DNA of 64,000 nt from a bacterium HR21 (GTDB taxonomy: Bacteria > Bacteroidota > Ignavibacteria > Kapaibacteriales > HRBIN21). A model generated the notes under the pieces. The model was not told the DNA's origin and made no database searches. It worked only from the letters and a program-made list of their open reading frames with translations. This document shows positions 8,801 to 18,591 of the stretch, one piece after another (within the stretch, counting starts at the first letter, position 1; the number at the start of each line of letters is the position of its first letter). The stretch covers positions 1 to 64,000 of the forward strand of contig BEHX01000001.1 in assembly GCA_002898295.1 (NCBI GenBank), read 5' to 3'. Both the position numbers and the translations under genes were made by a program.

Positions 8801-9475
8801 GGCGCGCTCGCGCTCATCATGCCCCGGGTCAATTGGATGCTCCGGTGGGATGGGTTGGAGAAGTGGTGGCCCTTCCGCGTTCTCGGGACCCAGCGCGTGT
8901 CGCTCGACCACTCGTATAGCTCGACCTACCGCGAGAACACCCGCCTCACCGATCGAGGACGGGTCATTGACGCCCAGCAGGTTGAAGCCAACTTCCAGCC
9001 CTTTCTCGGGTTGAGTATGACCTTTGATGAGAAAACCTGGCGGGGACCAGCAACGGCGATTCTACGCTACAACCTGCGCTATAGCTATCAGCTGGGGGCA
9101 GCGGCTCGCTCGATTCAACGGCAGGTCTCGCACGAATTTTCGCTGCAGCTGAGCCATACACGACGGGGATTTGTGGTGCCGCTCCTGGGCATGGCGCTCA
9201 AAAACGATATCGAACTGAGCTTCCTGGCCTCTGTGCGCCGGAACGTGACATCCTCCCACGATGTCTTCCGCTCCGGCGGGAGCGACGGCTTGCGGGTAGA
9301 CGGCAGCACGCAGATTACCATCGAGCCGCGTGCCCGCTACACGGTCAGCCAGCGCCTAACGGCGGCGTTGTTCATGCGCTACGATGGCGTCTTCAACGAA
9401 GGAGCAGCACAGCCTGGCTACAGCACCTTCCAGATCGGGATGGATGTCCGGTTGGGTATTTCCGGAGGGCGCTGA
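2831..9475 (+). CDS. sprA: T9SS outer-membrane translocon protein SprA (Sov)
   Basis: Very large outer-membrane beta-barrel that forms the protein-conducting pore of the type IX secretion system, through which folded cargo with C-terminal sorting domains crosses the outer membrane. From the ATG at 2831 it is 2214 residues, in the usual 2200-2500 range. The first ~27 residues are a signal peptide (basic start, hydrophobic core, AMA-like end). A GTG five codons earlier is possible but makes a worse signal peptide. The body is rich in aromatic-ending beta strands. Around residues 950-1000 a segment with PNGKLDTEDG and GILDAGEDVGIDGLND resembles the Asp/Gly-rich calcium-type loops typical of SprA. 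The end (FQIGMDVRLG) is barrel-like. Its presence explains the two T9SS cargo proteins at 59.6 and 62.3 kb. Other T9SS core genes are not in the window. Confidence 0.95.
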   Translation: MRTRAALGLRWWGALLVVVLPAMAAGDTTGGLLPRQSPWYFQSSPEALGPARSTVLQERYELDSATWSWRRRVLSGELELLPPWSWGSLEEYLLWRQHLWRDRLWDSLWQQYDIRLAYSPQERNQLLGQIATITIPLPPNPLLTIFGKPEISISVAGEVNVRAGWRWDWQRLGTASAVGQVQSSPMFSQSINLNVSGRIGDKVRLGVDWGSHRMFEFDNKFRLGYEGSDDDVVRKVELGNVSFQTPSTLISGAQALFGIRSDFQFGPLFLKTIAAQKRAERRVTRLQGGALRQRFALRAYEYARNHFFLDTAYRSVYREYFRYATPVVPAAATPLRVKEIEVWESTTDLRVTQAANAVAFAELPPVAVGQRYDESYKQAAVVAGEVERGRFVRLDPSQYRFNPQLGILTLTTLRQDRTYAVAYRIEGPTERPEDDLVYGTFSNTAGESDTLVLKLIYRPNFQPGFRSLWARQLRNIYSIGTRAVQDATIRIWYIRDTNDSSEVLEGSPDKLVTILGVDRVNNATGDPTPDGLFDSGLQSPFFDVQNGEIIFPSLEPFREGLRQYFAARGVASLAERYVYGAVYDTTVEAARLQTDRDRFVIAGEVTGSAGSRISLGAFNLEPGSVRVYLNGTPLKEGDDYIVQYYSGEVILRNPRATLPNANVEVEYEPRDLFTIGARTLLGLRGDALVLNRRRLKATWGFTTMFYHQAALIDRVRLGDEPVSNWILGTDLNLQWETPWLTTLLNALPFVDSKENSQLRLRAEFAQMFPTPNTRRSEVASDQGAPVVYIDDFEGSDRRLPLGMLPGYWRHSSPPVDPDIAPDARTAALYRGKLFWYQFFLPETPIREVYPNRDLIPGQSNLRALYIVFRPDERGIYNQNPEFVDFRNPLFDSTTAFARRPENRRRIWGGMTRLLSSYPLNLDAENYEYLEIMMRVEHAEPGTELFIDLGQISEDLIPNGKLDTEDGITQAAPLPNGILDAGEDVGIDGLNDAAERAAYPYPLSLEDDPARDNFAFDYTKDPGLLTETDFERYNAPEGNSQSELGQFPDTEVLNPNNGQTVMLENSYFSYRIRLDPNPATNPQIVGGGNNGWYLYRIPLRRPDRVVGNPLFSNIQYIRLWVKGGALKLRIADWRLTGALWQKRHPFQASATEQDSVLEVAFVSREENSGPPDYYTMPPGVLPPRQLSNPDPTQDIRLNEQSLVLRVRNLRYGEERMAVRLFPQRLDMLYYRKLKLFVHGDGSMPFRLGSGEIPQAEIFIRFGIDSANYYEYRRPLLQGWQDIQLDLRQLAAVKSLRDSLFQRTVFETALAGDPLGRVRVRGNPSLTQVQFIGLGIANPAERFPNFLTTTVWVDELRLTEPDARPDWAGIAAMDLQLADLGTLTVNVLRTQPGFHRLEERFGDRVLRSSWNAAVTLALEKLFPKSWRELRIPFTYTHSEQLEKPVLVPQNDMPVEEAADAVRRQRLQQGASLQEAEAAAQQVRVRSQTLRVQDSWAITGLRPGIPSSVWWVRDIFNRFTLGYSYAQEFERSPQVAERFRWQWNLTLQYAVQMRPLLAVRPLGWGGKIPVVKEFAGWQLSPWPTNLGFGLTLTRGRQTEQLRDIPFPSPVVREFTAQQQLQASWRLSEGGLFNPAVDYSLTANSTLVPLEQDPETGRQRTGGEIFRHMVARRPPLYLGEETAVRENITVNFRPRLAELLRLQRFVDLTGSYTVTYSWSDPRQPDPAIRDVVKQAQWQSSLRWNTALRLKQLSEQLFGKPTAADTGRILQRVWSVLRSVLFDYDNFQINFQQDNSSLNPGVLGGTGLTNLWLRALLFRAQTPLYGPTAAYQLGLLSSPHGQIQLLSSPRFPFFRFATTLGVRPPNAVLQENFSQRSVLDMRTSRPLWAGATLTLSWKSEFAYNRNWTLQTDAAGIPTPTAVVVTNSYSRTALFLPPFLFLALFRNTPERVLELYEQQRGAILASTSDTTEQNMRLQQALSEAFRRGVESFRWYPGALALIMPRVNWMLRWDGLEKWWPFRVLGTQRVSLDHSYSSTYRENTRLTDRGRVIDAQQVEANFQPFLGLSMTFDEKTWRGPATAILRYNLRYSYQLGAAARSIQRQVSHEFSLQLSHTRRGFVVPLLGMALKNDIELSFLASVRRNVTSSHDVFRSGGSDGLRVDGSTQITIEPRARYTVSQRLTAALFMRYDGVFNEGAAQPGYSTFQIGMDVRLGISGGR

Positions 9476-9494
9476 GAGCCGCTCTTGTGGCACC

Positions 9495-10928
9495 ATGGAC
9501 ACCCGCACCATGGAGATGTTCTCGGAGTATCCCGCAGTCTCTGCATGGGAGGTGCTCGATACAGCTGCCAACGCGGCAGAGCGCCTGCAATGGGCACTGC
9601 GGAAGAAGCGGGGCTGTATCCTCCTACCGTGGACTCATCCTGCAGCACTGCCGGACTTTATGCCCCCGTTTGACTGGGAGCGTACCCCGTCGGGACGCTT
9701 CCCGCCGGGCAAGCAGCTCCTCTTCCGTCTCCTGCAGCGTGCGCCACGGTTTGATCCGCGGCATCCCATCCCGGGAGAAGAGGTGCGCTCTCTGGTGGTG
9801 TTCCGCTACGATGCCATCGGTGACTACTTAGTGACGACCCCGCTTCTGCGGTGGCTCCGTCAGGGGTTGCCACAGGCACGGCTGTGTGTGGTAACTTCAA
9901 CGCGCAATGATGGGCTCGTTGGGCAGGATCCTTGTGTGGATGAGCACGTTCCCCTTCACCCTATGCATGGGGTTCATCCCTCGTGGGTGCGAGCCATTGT
10001 GCGCCTGCGCGGTCCGCATCAGGTGGTCTACGCTTTAGTGTTCACGCACATGAGCAAGGCAGCCTTTCTGGCGCGCAGTATTGCGCCGGAGGCAGAGTAC
10101 ATTGCTCCGCGGCATTGGGAACGCGCCTACCTCTATGGATTGGTCTTCCACCGCCAGCCGGAGCATTGCCCCTGGCGGCAACACTGGGCGCAGACATTGC
10201 TGCAGATAGGGTGCAGGACGCTTGCACCCTGTGTTCCGGTGGAACCCTCGCCGCGGTTGCATGTTCCCGTCTCAGCAGAGGCATGTGAGCGGGTCTGGAG
10301 CGAACTCGAGCGGAGAGGGCTCGGTACTGTGCCGCCTCTTGGTCTGCCGGTGCCGGCTCGTGGCTCATCTCCACTGCGGTGGGAGCCGGTCGAAGGGATG
10401 CCATACGCTGTGGTCAATCTCTCTGCATACTCGAAGAATCGCCGCTGGGCAGTGCACCATGCGCTCGTGGTCTGTCGTGAGTTGCTCCGGCGCATTCCTG
10501 GAATAGCTCTCGTGGTGACGGCAGCACCGCAGCAGAGGCGGCAGGTCGAGACACTGGTGCAGGCTGTGAGGGATTCCCGCTGTCGAGCCTTCCAGGGGAG
10601 CCTCTCGGAGTTGATTGCTCTGGTTGCTGGGGCGGCGTGGGTTTTGTCGCCGGATACGTCCGTGGTACACCTTGCCTCAGCATTGGGCAAGCCCGTGGTT
10701 GCGCTTTACAGTGAGCTCATCAAGGTCGCCGAGTGGTATCCCTTTGGGGTGCCGTCGGTGTGCGTGCTGAGCCCGCTCTGGGGTGGGGTAACCTTTGTGC
10801 CGCCGGCGGCAATTGTCGAAGCGGTCGAACGCCTGGTGCAGGAAGTTATTCCTGCTGGGGCAGTGATTCCGCCGGTGCCGTTGCCCAGCGGAGGAGCGCT
10901 GTCAGGGAGTGCCACGGGGAAGTGCTGA
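9495..10928 (+). CDS. GT9-family (heptosyltransferase-like) glycosyltransferase
   Basis: Predicted cytoplasmic GT-B enzyme of the ADP-heptose:LPS heptosyltransferase family (WaaC/WaaF type), 477 residues from the ATG at 9495. A GT9 N-domain begins around residue 94 (LVVFRYDAIGDYLVTTPLLR, with the conserved GD...TTP pattern). The C-terminal domain carries the donor-site block SPDTSVVHLASALGKPVVAL. The first ~90 residues are an extra N-terminal region not typical of WaaF. The frame runs back to 9384 inside sprA, but 9495 is the first start clear of it. It lies 19 nt after sprA, so it is probably cotranscribed. With gmhB and the lpx genes it suggests a heptose-containing LPS core, although the sugar is not proven. 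Its last 83 nt overlap the 3' end of the convergent FAD/Fe-S gene. Confidence 0.82.
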   Translation: MDTRTMEMFSEYPAVSAWEVLDTAANAAERLQWALRKKRGCILLPWTHPAALPDFMPPFDWERTPSGRFPPGKQLLFRLLQRAPRFDPRHPIPGEEVRSLVVFRYDAIGDYLVTTPLLRWLRQGLPQARLCVVTSTRNDGLVGQDPCVDEHVPLHPMHGVHPSWVRAIVRLRGPHQVVYALVFTHMSKAAFLARSIAPEAEYIAPRHWERAYLYGLVFHRQPEHCPWRQHWAQTLLQIGCRTLAPCVPVEPSPRLHVPVSAEACERVWSELERRGLGTVPPLGLPVPARGSSPLRWEPVEGMPYAVVNLSAYSKNRRWAVHHALVVCRELLRRIPGIALVVTAAPQQRRQVETLVQAVRDSRCRAFQGSLSELIALVAGAAWVLSPDTSVVHLASALGKPVVALYSELIKVAEWYPFGVPSVCVLSPLWGGVTFVPPAAIVEAVERLVQEVIPAGAVIPPVPLPSGGALSGSATGKC

Positions 10929-13599
10929 GCATTTCCAGTGCACGGGCGCAGGGAGCGTTCGTTGTATACCCCGGTGCTGCTTCCCCCGGAGCGAGCAACC
11001 GCGATCCTGCCGAGCGGGACAGCTCAGGGCGGCGCAGCCAGAGGTCGCCGGCCGCACCGCAGCACTCGGGGCTGGGCAAGAGGGAGACCGTCTCAGCACA
11101 TGCCCGAGCAAGCTGCACGGCTGTGTCTGCCAGTCCCATGTGGTGGAGGGAACACGGGATGTGGAGGCGGAGAGCCGGTTGGCGTCGTCGAGGTTGCAGC
11201 GCCGCGGAGAGCCGGGCAGCGTACTCGAGTGCATCCAGGATAGGGAACGCCGCAGTCGCTGTGCTCTTGAGCCAGAGGGCACACGAGTTCCCCACCACGA
11301 TGAGTGCGTGCGGATGGCTCTGCGAGGCAGCTTCTAGAAGGCGCTGGCGTGCGTGCTCAGCTGCCTGGAGAAAGCCCTTTGAAGCGAAGACAAGTCCACA
11401 GCAGAGACGCTCCGCCGAGGGGAGGACTGCCAAGGGCTCTCCGAACTGCTGGGACAGTGCGAGTATATCCGCCGGTGCTGTGCTGCCGAGCCATCGTTCC
11501 CCACATCCAGGGAAGAGCACCGCGATGCCCGGCAGCGGGGGAACAGAAGGGAGGCGGAGAGGAGCGCTCCGGAGGCTCGAGTGCCAGAGAGGAAACGCCC
11601 TGCCGGAGACTCGGTGGAGCGCGGCGGTGAGACGCTCGAGCCGGGACGCACCGAGCACGCGTGCCATCCCACGCCCGACCGCCAGAGTTGCTCGCACGGC
11701 AGCATCCACCCAGCCGTAGTGTCGGGCTGCGAACACCGTGAGACGGTTGGTCGCAGAGTGATGCCGTCGTTGACGCAGCTCCCGCACGAGCTTCCCCGTA
11801 TCGATGCCAACCGGGCATCGCAGCTGGCAGAGTCCATCGGCAGCACACGTGTCTATCACGGCATAGCGCCACCTCGTGTCCTGCAGAGCCGGAGCATAGC
11901 GCAGCAGGGCAATCCGCTGTCGGGGCGTCAGGGTCAGCGTGCGGCTGGGACAGACCGGTTCACAGAACCCGCACTCCATACAACGGTCAGCATCCGAGCC
12001 GAGCAGAGGCGTGCGTTTCAGATTCCGCACGTGCACACGCTCGTGCCGGCTGAGGATGACATCCGGGTTGAGAATTCCCTCAGGGTCAATGAGGCGCTTG
12101 AGCTCCCACATGAGCTCGTAGGCGTCGTCGCCCCACTCGGCACGGACAAACGGTGCCATATTACGTCCGGTGCCGTGCTCGGCTTTGAGCGAGCCGCCGT
12201 GTTCGAGCACTAGCGCCACGACCTCGTCGAGCAAGGCGGCGTAGCGTGCAGTGTCCTGTTCGCTCCGCAGGGGTTGGGGGAGCACGAAGTGGAGATTCCC
12301 ATCTTTGGCGTGCCCGAAGATGACTGCGTTGGGATAGCCATGCCGTGTCAACGCCTGCCGGAGGCGGCGAACGGTGTCGGGGAGAGCCTCCAGCGGGACG
12401 GCGATGTCTTCGCTGATGGGCGTTGTCCCAAGCGGGCGCCGGGCAGCAACCAGCGGATAGAGGCTACGGCGAGCAGCCCACAGATGTGCCTGCTGCTCTT
12501 CCTCGGCGGTCAGCAGTGGAGGTGCAAGCAGAGGGAAATGGTCAAGCAGCGCCTGGGTCTGCTTCCTGCATGCCTGGTGTTCGCTCTCGGTCCAGCGTCG
12601 GTATTCGATCAGCAAAGCGGTAGCAGCGTCCGGCAGAGCGTGGAACTCCGCCGCAATCCCGGGACGACCTGCCAGAGAGCGTAGCGACGCGCTATCGAGC
12701 AGCTCGACTGCATCGGCTCCGAGATCTCGCACCAGAGCAACTGCCTGGCAGGCCTGCTCCGGGGACGGAAAGAGCGCAAACGCAGTGAGGCGCAGCGGCG
12801 GATCGGGAACAGTCCGGAGCACAATGTCGGCCAAGAAGCCCAGCGTTCCTTCAGAGCCAACCATGAGGTGTGCCAGAATCTGCGCCGGGGAGTCGAAGTC
12901 CACAAAAGCGTTGAGGCTGTAGCCGACGGTGTTTTTCAGTTGGTACTTCCGCTGGATGCGTTCGCACAGCGAGGCGGAATGGAGGATGCGACGCCGGATC
13001 CGGAGAAGCCCTTCGGAGAGCTCCGGCGCGTGCTCAGCCAGAAAGGCATCGGCATCGGGACGAGCTGTGTCGAGGACCAATCCGCTGGGCAGCACGAGGA
13101 GGAGCGATTCGAGCGTGCGGTACGCTGTGTCCCGTGTGCCACAGCACATCCCGCTGGCATTGTTCGCAACGATGCCGCCGAGGGTGCAGACGTCCACCGA
13201 CGCGGGATCCGGTCCCAAGCGTCGCCAGTACGGGCGCAACGCTTGGTTGAGCAGCCCGGCACGGACTCCCGGCTGTGCCCGAATGGCGGCACCATTCCGC
13301 AGGATTTCCCAGCGCTGCCAATAACGCCGTACTTCCACGAGCACCCCGTCGGTGACGGCTTGCCCGGAGAGGCTGGTCCCGGCAGCACGAAATGTCAGCG
13401 GAATGCGGTAATTCCGGCTCCAGGCAAAGAGCTGCCGGATATCTTCCAGTGTCCGGGGGAAGACGACCGCTTTCGGCACGTACCAGTAAAGACCGGCATC
13501 GGGGGCGAACGCGATCCGGGTGAAAGCATCCGTTGCAACCTGCTCCTCCGGCACTACCTGCCGGAGCGCGGCTTCTGCGTCCGCAGGCAGCGCTTCCAT
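10846..13599 (-). CDS. FAD-linked oxidase with 4Fe-4S and CCG domains (D-lactate/glycolate dehydrogenase-like)
   Basis: 917-residue fusion of a GlcD/Dld-type flavoprotein with a GlpC/LutA-type iron-sulfur protein. Residues ~40-180 are the FAD-binding (PCMH) domain (AAGTSLSGQA, GGIVANNASGM). Residues ~240-515 are the FAD-oxidase C-terminal domain, with GHAKDGNLHF at 429-438 and EHGTGR at 474-479. Two ferredoxin-like clusters follow (C540, C543, C546, C550; then C585, C591, C595). Two CCG motifs (LCCG, ECCG) lie in the last third. Family members oxidise 2-hydroxyacids and pass electrons towards quinones or other carriers. The substrate cannot be read from sequence. The ATG at 13599 is 2 nt after the CADD-like gene, so the two are certainly cotranscribed. 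The 3' end overlaps the convergent GT9 gene by 83 nt. Confidence 0.88.
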   Translation of the reverse strand: MEALPADAEAALRQVVPEEQVATDAFTRIAFAPDAGLYWYVPKAVVFPRTLEDIRQLFAWSRNYRIPLTFRAAGTSLSGQAVTDGVLVEVRRYWQRWEILRNGAAIRAQPGVRAGLLNQALRPYWRRLGPDPASVDVCTLGGIVANNASGMCCGTRDTAYRTLESLLLVLPSGLVLDTARPDADAFLAEHAPELSEGLLRIRRRILHSASLCERIQRKYQLKNTVGYSLNAFVDFDSPAQILAHLMVGSEGTLGFLADIVLRTVPDPPLRLTAFALFPSPEQACQAVALVRDLGADAVELLDSASLRSLAGRPGIAAEFHALPDAATALLIEYRRWTESEHQACRKQTQALLDHFPLLAPPLLTAEEEQQAHLWAARRSLYPLVAARRPLGTTPISEDIAVPLEALPDTVRRLRQALTRHGYPNAVIFGHAKDGNLHFVLPQPLRSEQDTARYAALLDEVVALVLEHGGSLKAEHGTGRNMAPFVRAEWGDDAYELMWELKRLIDPEGILNPDVILSRHERVHVRNLKRTPLLGSDADRCMECGFCEPVCPSRTLTLTPRQRIALLRYAPALQDTRWRYAVIDTCAADGLCQLRCPVGIDTGKLVRELRQRRHHSATNRLTVFAARHYGWVDAAVRATLAVGRGMARVLGASRLERLTAALHRVSGRAFPLWHSSLRSAPLRLPSVPPLPGIAVLFPGCGERWLGSTAPADILALSQQFGEPLAVLPSAERLCCGLVFASKGFLQAAEHARQRLLEAASQSHPHALIVVGNSCALWLKSTATAAFPILDALEYAARLSAALQPRRRQPALRLHIPCSLHHMGLADTAVQLARACAETVSLLPSPECCGAAGDLWLRRPELSRSAGSRLLAPGEAAPGYTTNAPCARALEMLSTSPWHSLTALLRWATAPAESLPQQE

Positions 13600-13601
13600 C
13601 C

Positions 13602-14294
13602 TTATCCCACAGGGTTCGGGCGCATGCAGTATGTCTGGTAGACACCGTCCAGTAGGAGATTCAGTGCATCGGCAGCTTCCGCAGCGGCTTCCAGAGCGCG
13701 CTCCCGATCATGGGCAGTTGTACACACCTGTGCCAGAGCTTCTCGCAGGACGGCTCGGTGGATTTCATCAGCACGGATGTGGACCGTGAAGAAGGACAAT
13801 CCCCGCTCGTCCGTGATGCCGTAGTAGCGCGTGAGTCCCTCGATTTTCACCGCTGCTACCTCTGGCACCTGTGATTCGTAGGCGTACAGTGATGCCAGTC
13901 CTTCTGCCGGATTGGGGCGGGCGGAAAGCTCCCGTAGGAGTTCGACCGCTGCACGAGTCTGTGGTAAATGGTGATGGCGAAAGATCTCCTGGCGGCTCAC
14001 CCCGAGCGCCTCGGCAAAGCGGAGCCACAGCTCGGGATGGTTATCCGGACCGTGTTCCTCCTCGAAGAGGTTTTCCAGCAGCATCTGCCGGATTGCCAGG
14101 TCGTGGCAGCGGGAATGGGTGGCACTGACGTAGGTTGGGAAAAAGTGCACGTGCAGGTAGTACTCCTTGGCGTATTCCCGGAGGATGGGGAGGGTTAGCG
14201 CCCCCTCGTTCCAGAGCTGGTAGAAGGGATGCTGGAGCATGTGCCGTTCCCCGATGACCGCGTCGAGCGCGCGGAGGAAGTCCTGGACTGTCAT
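13602..14294 (-). CDS. CADD-like heme-oxygenase-fold protein, putative self-sacrificing p-aminobenzoate synthase
   Basis: 230 residues of the TenA/PqqC/heme-oxygenase-like fold, closest in motif content to chlamydial CADD. CADD is reported to make the p-aminobenzoate unit of folate from one of its own tyrosines, using a dimetal centre and oxygen. Every key CADD residue I recall is present here at a constant offset of -2: Y25 (Y27), E79 (E81), H86 (H88), E140 (E142), K150 (K152), H172 (H174), D176 (D178) and H179 (H181). The HxxxDxxH signature reads HIRADEIH. The frame is open to 14486, but MTVQDF at 14294 is the natural start. It is the first gene of a two-gene unit with the FAD/Fe-S protein, a possible electron source. 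A PqqC-like or other oxygenase role remains possible. Confidence 0.8.
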   Translation of the reverse strand: MTVQDFLRALDAVIGERHMLQHPFYQLWNEGALTLPILREYAKEYYLHVHFFPTYVSATHSRCHDLAIRQMLLENLFEEEHGPDNHPELWLRFAEALGVSRQEIFRHHHLPQTRAAVELLRELSARPNPAEGLASLYAYESQVPEVAAVKIEGLTRYYGITDERGLSFFTVHIRADEIHRAVLREALAQVCTTAHDRERALEAAAEAADALNLLLDGVYQTYCMRPNPVG

Positions 14295-14359
14295 GGTCGC
14301 TCCCGCAAAGGTGGACTCCGTTGGTCGGTTTTTTCGGAAGACGAAAATACGGCGTTGGC

Positions 14360-14367
14360 TAAATTTG
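14360..14367 (+). promoter_or_regulatory. -7 promoter element before clpS
   Basis: TAAATTTG is an exact TAnnTTTG match, 37 nt before the clpS ATG, in the divergent region between the CADD-like gene and clpS. On the other strand TATTTTCG (14342-14349) is a one-mismatch candidate for the CADD-like gene. Confidence 0.5.
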
Positions 14368-14404
14368 TGTCTGCCGCAGGAGTGGTTCCCAGAGAAGAGC
14401 GGAG

Positions 14405-14701
14405 ATGACAGGTGGAGCTTTGACTCGACCGGCAGAGGAGGTTGAGGTCCTGGAGCAGCATGTGACGGGGACCGACTTGCCGGCAAAGGTCATTCTCTAC
14501 AACGACGACTGGCACACCTTTGAGGAAGTCATCGTGCAGCTGATGAAGGCAACTGGCTGCAGCCGGGAGCGTGCGGAGGCTCTCACCTGGGAGGTGCACA
14601 CCCGCGGCAAAGCGGCGGTCTACGAAGGGACTCTTGCCGAATGTCTGCGTGTCAGCAGTGTGCTGGAGGAAATTGCGCTGCATACGCAGATTGAGTGTTA
14701 G
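14405..14701 (+). CDS. clpS: ATP-dependent Clp protease adaptor ClpS
   Basis: 98-residue adaptor that delivers N-degron substrates to ClpAP/ClpCP. The ClpS core spans residues ~25-95, with the ligand-pocket segment [13 protein letters not shown] (NDD plus the following Thr-Phe) and the later [14 protein letters not shown] block that carries the binding-site His. The N-terminal ~24 residues are an acidic flexible extension, as expected. The ATG at 14405 follows a purine-rich GGAG. It stands alone between a divergent and a convergent gene; no clp ATPase is nearby. Its stop is 45 nt from the penicillin-binding protein stop, the only convergent pair here with a real gap. Confidence 0.93.
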
Positions 14702-14746
14702 TCCACCCGGGAGGCAGCCTGGGTTCGTGCCCACGGGCGGTTTCCT

Positions 14747-16861
14747 TCAGGGCAGGTTTTCCTGCGGGGGGTTCTGCAGCAACTCGGGGGTAAGTGTATC
14801 GGCAGGGAGCATGGCAGGGAAAGGACGCGGGCGATAGGGCAGGGTGGAGTCGCTGTAGACTTTCGCCATGAGCCGTCCCCAGATAGGGGCAGCCGCGCGT
14901 CCGCCCTGCCCGTACCAGCCGGTGAACGTGATGCGGCGGTCATCGAAGCCAACCCAGACGCCGGCAACAAGGTCGGGGGTAAATCCCACAAACCAGGCAT
15001 CGGCAAAGTCATTCGTGGTGCCGGTCTTGCCCGCTGCCGGTCCGCTGTACCAACGACGGACGGCGCTTCCGGTGCCGCCATTGACCACTGTGGTGAGCAT
15101 CGCTGTCAGCGTTTGGGCGACAGTTGCCGGGAGCGCGTCGCTGACCGGGCGCGTGGGTGGATGTTCGAAGAGCACATTGCCGTGCCGGTCTTCGACTCGC
15201 AGGACAAAGCGCGGCTCGACCCGAATACCTTGTCGGGCAAGGGTTGCGTATGCATTGGTCAGCTCCAGGGGCGTGACTTCTGAGGCGCCGAGTGCCAGCG
15301 CGGGGACCGGGCGCAGCGGCGATTCAATTCCCATCCGGCGCGCCAGTTCTGCAACCTGACTCGGAGTCGTGTAGTGCGTGATGAGCCGTGCTGCAACGGT
15401 GTTGATGGAATACTTCAGCGCGGTGGTCAGGGTCACCAGAGGACCGTACTGTTCTCCGGAACCCCGTGGCTCCCAGAGGCTCCCATCGGGCAGGACGTAG
15501 CGGAATGGTCCGCTGGGGAGCATGGAATCGGGCGAGAGCCCTCGGAGCAGGGCAGCCGCGTAGACGAAGGGTTTGAAGGCGGAACCAGGCTGACGCCGAA
15601 TCTGCGTGACGTGGTTCAGAAAGGAGCGCACGCGAAAGGGTGCTCCGGGCGGTTCCGGAGCTGCTCCCACCAGTGCCAGGATATCCCCGGTTGCCAGGTC
15701 GAGGACGACCAGCCCGGTTTGGATGCGCGTGGCGGCGTAGCGGACCGAATCCACAAAGCGGCGGTTCTGGCGCAGTCTGCGGGCAATTGCCTGCCGCTCT
15801 TCCGGAGGCGCAGAGAGGTACTCCGGTGCTGCGGCGATGGCATTGCGGAGCACGGCGTTGAGCAACTCGGGCGACCATGTCCACGAGCGCTCAAAGAGGC
15901 GTTGGTATTCTGCCAGGTGTTCCTGCACAGCAGCGGCGGCGTAGCGCTGGATCCGGGCATTGAGGGTTGTGTAGATGGTCAGTCCGTCGCGGTAGAGATC
16001 GTAGCCCTGGAGGCGTACATCTTGCTCCACTGCCTGGCGGACCATCTCGAGGAAGTGCGGAGCCAGCCCGAGCCGAGGGATATCCGAAGGATCTGCCAGG
16101 CGGAGGGGTTCAGCCATCGCAGCGCGGGCTTGTGCTTCTGTCAGGAAGCCGTTTTCCCACATCAGGCGCAGCACCAAGTTCCGGCGCTGGAGAGCACGCT
16201 CGGGATACTGCCGTGCATCGTAGAGTTCGGGTGCTTTCAGTAACGCGACCAAGTAGGCGCACTCTGCCAGGCTCAGCTCCGAGGGGGATTTGTCGAAGTA
16301 GACCTGGGCGGCAACGGCCAGTCCGTAAGCGCCTCGACCGAAGTAGACCGTGTTCGTGTACATCTGGAGGATTTCGTTCTTGCTGTAGGTCCGCTCAATC
16401 TGGATGGCGGTCAGAGCCTCGCGGAGTTTGCGCCAGAGCGTCACCTCGCGTCCGAAATAGAGGTTGCGCGCCAACTGCTGGGTGATCGTAGAGGCGCCCT
16501 CGCGGGTGAGATCACCGGCGAGGATGTTCTTGATGAGCGCCTTCAGGATGCGTGCCGGATGGATGCCCCAGTGCCGGTAGAAGGCACGATCCTCGGTGGC
16601 GATGAGCGCCTGGAGAAACGGCGTGGGGATGCTGTCAAATGGCAGGTACGAGCGGCGCTTGATGAAAAACTGCCCGATGACTTCTCCGTCAGCGCTCAGC
16701 ACCCGGCTGGCGAGCTCCTGCGGAGGATTCTCCAGCTGCTCCAGAGAGGGCAGCCCACGGACTACTCGAACCAGCACGTAGGCGCATCCTCCCAGCCAGA
16801 GGAGGCTCCCGAGCAGGAGCAGACGCAGGACCCACCTGCGAGAAAGCAGGCGCATGCTCAT
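14747..16861 (-). CDS. Class A penicillin-binding protein (PBP1A type)
   Basis: Bifunctional peptidoglycan synthase anchored in the inner membrane, 704 residues from the ATG at 16861. One membrane helix lies at ~11-35. The glycosyltransferase (GT51) domain covers ~60-230, with catalytic E90 (ATEDRAFYRHWGIHP) and EGASTITQQLARN at ~121-133. The transpeptidase domain covers ~380-680 with S427xxK430, S485-I-N487 and K612-T-G. All catalytic motifs are intact. An upstream in-frame ATG at 16912 would lie deep inside the OmpA-lipoprotein gene. The chosen ATG overlaps that gene's TGA (ATGA), indicating translational coupling between a wall synthase and a wall-binding lipoprotein. Confidence 0.93.
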   Translation of the reverse strand: MSMRLLSRRWVLRLLLLGSLLWLGGCAYVLVRVVRGLPSLEQLENPPQELASRVLSADGEVIGQFFIKRRSYLPFDSIPTPFLQALIATEDRAFYRHWGIHPARILKALIKNILAGDLTREGASTITQQLARNLYFGREVTLWRKLREALTAIQIERTYSKNEILQMYTNTVYFGRGAYGLAVAAQVYFDKSPSELSLAECAYLVALLKAPELYDARQYPERALQRRNLVLRLMWENGFLTEAQARAAMAEPLRLADPSDIPRLGLAPHFLEMVRQAVEQDVRLQGYDLYRDGLTIYTTLNARIQRYAAAAVQEHLAEYQRLFERSWTWSPELLNAVLRNAIAAAPEYLSAPPEERQAIARRLRQNRRFVDSVRYAATRIQTGLVVLDLATGDILALVGAAPEPPGAPFRVRSFLNHVTQIRRQPGSAFKPFVYAAALLRGLSPDSMLPSGPFRYVLPDGSLWEPRGSGEQYGPLVTLTTALKYSINTVAARLITHYTTPSQVAELARRMGIESPLRPVPALALGASEVTPLELTNAYATLARQGIRVEPRFVLRVEDRHGNVLFEHPPTRPVSDALPATVAQTLTAMLTTVVNGGTGSAVRRWYSGPAAGKTGTTNDFADAWFVGFTPDLVAGVWVGFDDRRITFTGWYGQGGRAAAPIWGRLMAKVYSDSTLPYRPRPFPAMLPADTLTPELLQNPPQENLP

Positions 16862-18591
16862 GGCGTCCGGAGGACTTTGGTCAGCTCCACTCGCCGGCAG
16901 CGTTTCCGCCACCGTTCAAGTGGTTCCCCGGGAAGGCGCGGCAGGAGCTGCGACTGTCCAGCCGATTCGCCGTGCAGGAGCTCTGGCGGGACTCCACGGC
17001 GGACCAGCTCGGCAATGACGAACTCAACCCGCTTCTGCCCCAGCCACCGGTTGTACTCCGGCGAGCCAATGTCATCGGTGTGTCCGACCAGGAGCACAGA
17101 CTGCAGCTGAGTGCTATACCGCCGCAGGTTCTCTGCCAGGAGGTCCAAAGCCTGCTGCCATGTCAGCGCAGTTTCCTGCCCATTGGTGTCCAGCACGAAG
17201 GGGTAGGGGGCATCGTAGCGATCGAAAGGGAAGTTGAGGCGCAGGAAGAGCCGTGCAGGGATGTCTATCGGGGCAATGAGGGTATCGGACTCACCGGTGC
17301 GGATGCGTTCGACGTGGAAGAAGACCTCTCCGGCCTGGGCAATCAGCTCCAGCTCCGTTTGGGCAGGGACAGAGAGGCGGTAGCGTCCTGCTGTGTCTGT
17401 CCGCGCTGTGGCAACAGGGGCAGGCTGACCAGGGATGTGGGCGCGGACTTCTGCCTCCGGCAGTGGGCGTTGTGTCTCATACTGCCGGACCTGTCCTCGG
17501 AGTTCAATGCGGCGCAGAGGTGCCGGTGTCAATGGGGTAGCCAGCGGCTCCCGGCGGCGCATGACGAAGAGATCAAAGCTGCCGCGCAGATTCGAACTCC
17601 ACACCAGGAGGGAGTCCGGGTCTCCAGGGGCTGCCGGGGAGATCTCATCGGCTGGGGTGTTCGGAGGCGAGCCCAATGACTGCGCTGGCTCAAACCACGG
17701 GCGGGGAAGCCCTGTATCCGGGGCAAGTGGAGGTAGCCCACGGCGCACCCAATCCCAGAAGAAGGGGGAGATAGCGGCAGCGAAGACATCGTAGCCCCCA
17801 CGGCTGGTATGCCCGTTGGAAGCAAAGAGGAGCCAGCGCCCATCGCGGCTGACCGAGGGCGTGAGCTCGTTGCAGGCGGTGTTGATCGAAGGACCGCAGT
17901 TGTAAGGACCTGCCCAGCTCCCATCGGGACGCTGGACTGCGAAGTAGAGATCCGTTCCGCCGTAACCGTCGGGGTAGTCGGCAGCGAAGAACAGCACGGA
18001 ACCATCGGGAGAGAGAGCCGGCTGCGATTCCCATGCCTCGGGGTGGGACCAGGGCAGCGGGGAATCGACCTGCACGTGCCCGTCGTGCAGCCGTCCACGG
18101 AAAAGGTGAATGTGTGCGGGATGCGCCCCTGCAGTCCGTCCTGCCACCACGAGACGCTCAGGCGTCCCGGTCGGCATGCCGAGCTGCTCCAGCTCGCTGT
18201 TCCAGAAACCCTGCCAAGTTGCCCGATCCCATTCTTCCAAGCGGACCGAACCCACGCGCTGGTGCCCACTGTCCGCCACGGTAGCCCAGGCGATGCGCTC
18301 CGAGACAAGTGCCAGCGCCAGCTCCTGACGCTCTGGGCTGGCAAGCCCTGCCACCGGCGCCACCTCCCAGTAGGGGCGATCACTCCTGGCAACGGTGTCG
18401 CGGACACTACCTTGCCACGGCAGGGGACGACACTGAGGGGATTCCGGCGGAGGGCAGGAAAGGTCGATGCTGGGCAGCGTGCTCCGACAGCCGAGCAGGA
18501 ACACCGCTGCCAGGAGCCCCCAACCGACGAGGCTACGCTGGTGCAGCCGACCCACACTGTGCGATTTACTCGAGTACCTGGAGCTGTGCAT
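16858..18591 (-). CDS. OmpA-family lipoprotein with PD40/TolB-like repeats
   Basis: 577-residue predicted lipoprotein that should link the outer membrane to peptidoglycan. The lipobox LLGC puts the lipidated Cys at residue 35. Residues ~150-330 contain PD40 WD40-like beta-propeller segments (LSPDGSVLFFAADYPDGYGGTDLYF, SRDGRWLLFASN). A carboxypeptidase-regulatory-like segment follows (~395-440, LPEAEVRAHIPG...TDTAGRYRL). The C-terminal OmpA domain (~470-570) has the peptidoglycan-binding pattern LVGHTDDIGS...N.WLGQKRVEFV. The same domain order occurs in T9SS-associated PorE-type lipoproteins, but the match is not decisive. The open frame extends to 18915 inside pcrA; the signal peptide decides for 18591, giving a 26-nt overlap with pcrA. 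Confidence 0.8.
   Translation of the reverse strand: MHSSRYSSKSHSVGRLHQRSLVGWGLLAAVFLLGCRSTLPSIDLSCPPPESPQCRPLPWQGSVRDTVARSDRPYWEVAPVAGLASPERQELALALVSERIAWATVADSGHQRVGSVRLEEWDRATWQGFWNSELEQLGMPTGTPERLVVAGRTAGAHPAHIHLFRGRLHDGHVQVDSPLPWSHPEAWESQPALSPDGSVLFFAADYPDGYGGTDLYFAVQRPDGSWAGPYNCGPSINTACNELTPSVSRDGRWLLFASNGHTSRGGYDVFAAAISPFFWDWVRRGLPPLAPDTGLPRPWFEPAQSLGSPPNTPADEISPAAPGDPDSLLVWSSNLRGSFDLFVMRRREPLATPLTPAPLRRIELRGQVRQYETQRPLPEAEVRAHIPGQPAPVATARTDTAGRYRLSVPAQTELELIAQAGEVFFHVERIRTGESDTLIAPIDIPARLFLRLNFPFDRYDAPYPFVLDTNGQETALTWQQALDLLAENLRRYSTQLQSVLLVGHTDDIGSPEYNRWLGQKRVEFVIAELVRRGVPPELLHGESAGQSQLLPRLPGEPLERWRKRCRRVELTKVLRTP

Follow-up and report, generated by a model that had tools for sequence, protein, structure and literature searches.

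A probable CADD-type p-aminobenzoate synthase as the only visible source of p-aminobenzoate in a Kapabacterium genome that appears to have lost the shikimate pathway

Introduction

How might a bacterium that appears unable to make chorismate still supply p-aminobenzoate (pABA) for folate synthesis? The question is raised by a gene on the minus strand at 13602..14294 of a 64,000-nucleotide stretch of a Kapabacterium genome (contig BEHX01000001.1), referred to here as the window. The canonical PabA/PabB/PabC enzymes provide pABA for FolP from chorismate and glutamine. A self-sacrificing reaction leading to the same product has been established for CADD (CT610) of Chlamydia trachomatis and NePabS (NE1434) of Nitrosomonas europaea (PMC11965152), and it has already been proposed in print that a TIGR04305 protein of Rickettsia possibly gives pABA without chorismate (PMC5615194). 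Judging by titles and the openings of abstracts, with subscription journals mostly uncovered, we found no literature that connects CADD to the loss of the shikimate pathway in free-living bacteria.

Results and Discussion

Identification of a CADD family member

The open reading frame extends on the minus strand from an ATG at 14294-14292 to a TAA at 13604-13602 and comprises 230 codons, while the plus-strand frame of 13602-14294 is full of stops. An earlier note on this DNA, which named no strand, had given the correct coordinates, provided that the frame is read on the minus strand. A divergent clpS gene (14405..14701, plus strand; PF02617, 61 bits) lies upstream. Rfam returned no match within 9000-17500 of the window, and a whole-window scan for strong sigma-70-like sites (8 matches versus 6.6 expected) placed none near the CADD gene.

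The 230-residue product, a predicted CADD-family self-sacrificing pABA synthase, matched TIGR04305 ('CADD family putative folate metabolism protein') over almost its full length at 281.2 bits (E 4.7e-84; cut-off 200) and shares about 41% identity with chlamydial CADD. In a phmmer comparison with solved structures, the best matches were CADD, represented by 1rcw (E 5.2e-51) and 8va9, and the entry 9pj4. The latter, a 4-aminobenzoate synthase, is probably NePabS, because the aligned sequence resembles peptides printed in PMC11965152. The AlphaFold model, built from an 11-row alignment (pLDDT 94.9, pTM 0.91), has a haem-oxygenase-like fold that Foldseek placed nearest CADD. The Fe/Mn CADD structure 8va9 ranked first (rmsd 1.3 Å, TM 0.89/0.95); 8va9 and 1rcw were found at 1.3-1.4 Å and the CADD crystal structures overall at 1.3-1.5 Å, and PqqC followed behind them at 2.4 Å or more.

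A PqqC-, TenA- or BesC-like HDO enzyme acting on a small molecule would have this fold in common with CADD, and the window protein does score against the PqqC model TIGR02111 (61.1 bits) and the BesC model NF042919 (41.5 bits). However, these values fall far short of the respective cut-offs of 240 and 500, whereas that of TIGR04305 was passed. No TenA-specific model occurred among the NCBIfam matches up to E 0.1, and the sole TenA-type match in Pfam was the clan-wide TENA_THI-4/PQQC model. Since the specific cut-offs were missed and the CADD structures fit closer, we dropped this identity; with the sacrificed tyrosine and lysine both in place as well, such an enzyme is highly improbable here. 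The scores support the proposal of the earlier note that the gene encodes a CADD-type pABA synthase, as far as can be judged from sequence. We therefore regard the protein as a member of an already known family, presumably with the enzymatic activity of that family.

Active-site residues and the metal-preference pair

The residues Y25, E79, H86, E140, K150, H172, D176, and H179, which had been listed as the counterparts of the CADD active residues, are all present in an ungapped phmmer alignment with 1rcw, in which the CADD numbers are two higher. Tyr25 (codon 14220..14222, minus strand) corresponds to CADD Tyr27 and NePabS Tyr25 and is the expected sacrificed tyrosine, and Lys150 (13845..13847, minus strand) corresponds to CADD Lys152 and NePabS Lys159 and is the expected amino-group donor (PMC11965152). 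The other six are the dimetal ligands, three histidines and three carboxylates. The radical-path or essential aromatic residues Y41, Y45, and W90, equivalent to NePabS Tyr41, Tyr45, and Trp99, are also retained. In NePabS, Tyr41 is described as essential, and changes of Tyr45 or Trp99 lower the output (PMC11965152).

The metal preference is reportedly set by two positions near the metals, which are Phe148/Phe177 in the Fe/Fe enzyme NePabS and Tyr141/Tyr170 in the Mn/Fe enzyme CADD; the F148Y variant of NePabS is cambialistic (PMC11965152). The window protein has Tyr139 (13878..13880, minus strand; CADD Tyr141, NePabS Phe148) together with Phe168 (13791..13793, minus strand; CADD Tyr170, NePabS Phe177), and thus shows neither the two tyrosines of the Mn/Fe subtype nor the two phenylalanines of the Fe/Fe subtype. 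The pair equals the combination in the F148Y variant, which suggests a metal site that would accept both Fe/Fe and Mn/Fe.

Among the 28 sequences above the TIGR04305 cut-off (the window protein and 27 loci), the sacrificed, ligand, and radical-path residues are invariant, and 27 carry the Tyr/Phe pair. A wider set of 89 rows consisted of the window protein, 8 earlier loci, and 80 named loci. The pair occurred in 86 of these rows; however, the 80 are the best out of 568 relatives, and the search used two peptide patterns, one of them prescribing Tyr139. Of the 89 rows, which come from several phyla in a best-80 sample that leans to close relatives, 87 have all 11 core residues. Two divergent homologues below the cut-off, L031 (genome G369) and L032 (G365), keep Tyr25 and Lys150 and have an altered metal ligand (E79Q and D176E, respectively) as well as an altered metal-preference pair.

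The nearest named relatives among the best 80 of 568 (L089-L091) are from Candidatus Kapaibacterium, Kapabacteria, and Bacteroidota bins, at 78-83% identity. A quick tree, which gave long-branch warnings and was used solely for this placement, grouped the window protein with them (SH-aLRT 100 for the four rows). Other members among the best 80 came from Kapabacteria or 'Ignavibacteria' bins and filamentous cyanobacteria, and from single bins of Acidobacteria, Myxococcales, Neomarinimicrobiota, and Dehalococcoidia. The cyanobacteria, including Trichodesmium, Okeania, Microcoleus, and Spirulina, account for 34 of these 80 loci (within L110-L166), and Okeania SIO2C9 has two copies (L114 and L115). 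From the sources of the relatives and the literature on the group, we infer that the host bacterium is free-living.

The FAD/Fe-S neighbor and its distribution

A gene for a 917-residue FAD and Fe-S dehydrogenase of the 2-hydroxyacid type (10846..13599, minus strand) begins 2 nt past the CADD stop codon, as the earlier note had stated. Its Pfam domains are FAD_binding_4, FAD-oxidase_C, a two-cluster Fer4 (Fer4_8), and CCG, and its solved relatives include D-lactate dehydrogenase, glycolate oxidase, and D-2-hydroxyglutarate dehydrogenase. It retains GHAKDGNLH and EHGTG, motifs that in 2-hydroxyacid dehydrogenases supply residues for metal and substrate.

The same strand, the 2-nt gap, and the adjacency of the two genes in all 6 genomes of the genus would suit a dedicated two-part system, with the FAD/Fe-S protein passing electrons to the dimetal site. 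However, the whole surrounding stretch is syntenic in the genus anyway: the order of a large gene that is presumably sprA-like, a glycosyltransferase gene, the FAD/Fe-S gene, the CADD gene, clpS, and genes for a penicillin-binding protein and an OmpA-like protein is kept in the stretches read. In G396, the genes past clpS could not be located, and the G399 stretch stops before the sprA-like gene. Outside the genus, the FAD/Fe-S gene is not next to CADD at any of 39 other Kapabacteria-clade, 34 cyanobacterial, and 4 other named loci, although fewer than 700 bases of downstream sequence are available for two of the Kapabacteria-clade and four of the cyanobacterial loci. Beyond the genus, homologues of the 917-residue protein were found in 44 of 55 relatives, among them genomes that lack CADD; they occur unlinked to it, and about 1 Mb separates the two genes in G043, a single-contig genome. 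The dehydrogenase motifs likewise argue against a dedicated electron donor. In addition, purified NePabS is reported to work in vitro with just metal, O2, and ascorbate, and ne1434 to complement E. coli pabABC without a partner (PMC11965152).

A conserved functional pair was therefore dropped, and we consider the two-part system quite unlikely. The pairing, a survey of which the earlier note had proposed, holds throughout the genus and is absent from the CADD loci read outside it, so that the arrangement is a genus-level one; the idea that the FAD/Fe-S protein supplies electrons is weak, and a functional link to it is unsupported by these data.

Other genes near CADD

A divergent clpS gene lies beside CADD at 27 of 42 named Kapabacteria-clade loci (e.g., L092, L116, and L141), from several families, and at none of the 34 cyanobacterial loci. 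Other CADD neighbors vary while clpS stays. As a guess, a single-use enzyme needing clearance could be linked to ClpS-ClpAP.

At 24 of the 42 Kapabacteria-clade loci, the next gene after CADD, in the same orientation, encodes a class-II glutamine amidotransferase (PF13230; e.g., L092:5717-6622). It is mostly 4-220 nt from CADD and is usually followed by a nuoL-type gene; in the host genus it is absent at CADD. This neighbor could reflect nitrogen supply, lysine repair, or plain synteny.

Folate and shikimate genes in the host genome

The host genome comprises 1.83 Mb in 17 contigs and is 95.2% complete. No match to the chorismate-binding enzyme family PF00425, to which PabB belongs, was detected in it, while all 14 control genomes were positive. 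Searches of the host genome for chorismate synthase (PF01264, found in all 14 controls) and for dehydroquinate synthase (PF01761, found in 11 of the 14) were likewise negative. Its sole Aminotran_4 gene, and thus its sole gene with the PabC fold, is IlvE, above the IlvE cut-off. The check for pabA/pabB/pabC proposed in the earlier note therefore yielded no pabB. An intact pabABC set combined with grouping with PqqC/TenA, which the note had held to speak against its proposal, was not what we found, the scores being of the CADD type.

The folP gene is present but divided between two contigs, each of which carries one half at its end. The two contigs overlap exactly over 99 bases, and the first half already scores above the DHPS cut-off by itself. 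The possibility that the host lacks folate synthesis was dropped, as folP is merely split by the assembly. Thus, the host genome has folP and is missing the pabABC route. Haem-copper oxidase family genes occur in all 61 genomes surveyed below, with 3 matches in the host genome; they suggest life with oxygen and make O2 chemistry plausible. Because chorismate itself apparently cannot be made, pABA could not be derived from it in this host; from these gene searches, the shikimate pathway seems lost and CADD appears to be the only visible source of pABA.

Folate and shikimate genes in relatives

We surveyed 61 related genomes, including the host genome; these are bins of related species. CADD scored above the cut-off in 45. 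In 33 of the 45, PF00425, aroB, and aroC are all missing, and the other 12 keep aroC. The 33 genomes include all 6 of the genus (completeness 92-100%) and share ancestry, so that genome counts are not counts of independent events. Each of the 33 has a match to PF00809, a family that covers MetH as well as FolP; in G419 the only match is a 742-aa open frame, probably MetH. In CADD-bearing genomes of this kind, pABA could not come from chorismate, and self-sacrifice of a tyrosine would be the only route visible in the gene content. Of the 38 genomes without aroC, 33 have CADD above the cut-off, compared with 12 of the 23 that keep aroC (Fisher p 0.006, illustrative only given the kinship of the genomes).

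The exclusion between CADD and PabB is not absolute, because the 12 CADD-bearing relatives retain chorismate synthase and two of them hold a PabB-like gene. We classified 18 of the 19 PF00425 genes in these 12 genomes, leaving out one of two in G401. They are TrpE-like or isochorismate synthase genes except in G401 and G405. G401 has a PabB gene above the NF005486 cut-off (460 bits) in addition to CADD and chorismate synthase; in G405, the gene is nearest the PabB models yet under their cut-offs, and the CADD of this genome is itself divergent (207 bits). PabB above the NF005486 cut-off was also found in the CADD-lacking genomes G196, G314, and G389, with the PF00425 matches of CADD-lacking G283 and the fragments of G341 left outside the NCBIfam classification. 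In a second draw of 395 genomes of the phylum, overlapping the 61, CADD exceeded the cut-off in 28. A TIGR00553 search gave a pabB-like match in 3 of the 28 (G275, G280, and G298), genes that NCBIfam names TrpE or TrpE-like and isochorismate synthase.

The 16 genomes without an over-cut-off CADD comprise 11 with aroC and 5 without (G109, G329, G357, G369, and G417). All five have a PF00809 match, and G109 and G369 carry weaker CADD homologues. G357 and G417, from the same order, have no aroC, aroB, PF00425, or CADD match, and are possibly true pABA importers.

Given these five relatives, pABA uptake is possible in the order, and they lend some weight to the alternative that the host imports pABA or folate precursors and that its CADD homologue has another job or is a leftover. 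Chlamydial CADD is also said to have a second role (PMC11965152). On the other hand, the key residues are kept in 87 of the 89 aligned sequences, unlike in a leftover, even if a best-80 sample favors kin. We consider import unlikely in the host.

Proposed route to pABA

The window protein is very probably a CADD-type pABA synthase, the sole visible source of pABA in this genome, with the aromatic ring coming from imported tyrosine. To the observed family membership, residues, fold, and gene absences, this reading adds chemistry taken from the two studied orthologues and an inferred uptake of tyrosine. The dimetal site formed by E79, H86, E140, H172, D176, and H179 would generate a radical with O2 and a general reductant, and the radical would travel via Y139, Y45, W90, and Y41 to Tyr25, whose side chain would then be cut off and oxidised to benzoate, with Lys150 donating the nitrogen, and each polypeptide would yield one pABA, which FolP would join to pterin. 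As the genome has neither a shikimate pathway nor any chorismate-binding enzyme, the ring would derive from external tyrosine that enters the cell.

Comparison with known systems

The window protein agrees with CADD of C. trachomatis in all metal ligands, in both sacrificed residues, and in Tyr139 (Tyr141), but has Phe168 in place of Tyr170, one of the two residues of Mn/Fe preference. In contrast to the chlamydial case, its host is presumably free-living and its gene is not next to folate genes within the window. NePabS (9pj4) resembles it in the free-living host, Tyr25, the lysine, and Phe177 (Phe168), and differs in having Phe148 for Tyr139 and a loop insert of about 10 residues. The rickettsial protein frC/fol_rel_CADD is likewise a TIGR04305 protein found without chorismate or PabABC; however, the locus is judged degraded in almost all rickettsiae, with folate synthesis considered absent (PMC5615194), whereas the window CADD is intact and accompanied by folP. 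Unlike the canonical route, for which neither PabB nor chorismate synthase was found in the host genome, the proposed one would not need chorismate. For a hot-spring relative from the same broad group, an inability to synthesise aromatic amino acids has been predicted, in a text that does not mention 'folate' (PMC6338057).

Implications

A self-sacrificing enzyme would explain continued folate synthesis despite the apparent loss of the aromatic pathway. We lean toward a broader reading in which a set of free-living lineages, the families f1, f2, f3, f4, and f7 of the order, make folate without chorismate. CADD, which also occurs in relatives that retain the shikimate pathway, would have predated shikimate loss and permitted it by removing the chorismate need of folate synthesis; pABA would be drawn from salvaged tyrosine, at the cost of one protein per molecule, by natural Tyr/Phe enzymes that take Fe/Fe or Mn/Fe. 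If this is true, these Kapabacteria would be natural free-living cases in which a single-use enzyme supplies an essential vitamin precursor without chorismate. The in vivo role of CADD would become testable outside obligate intracellular germs, and a natural Tyr/Phe enzyme would be available for the question of metal choice. A genome that lacks PabABC or the shikimate pathway would then not have to belong to a folate auxotroph.
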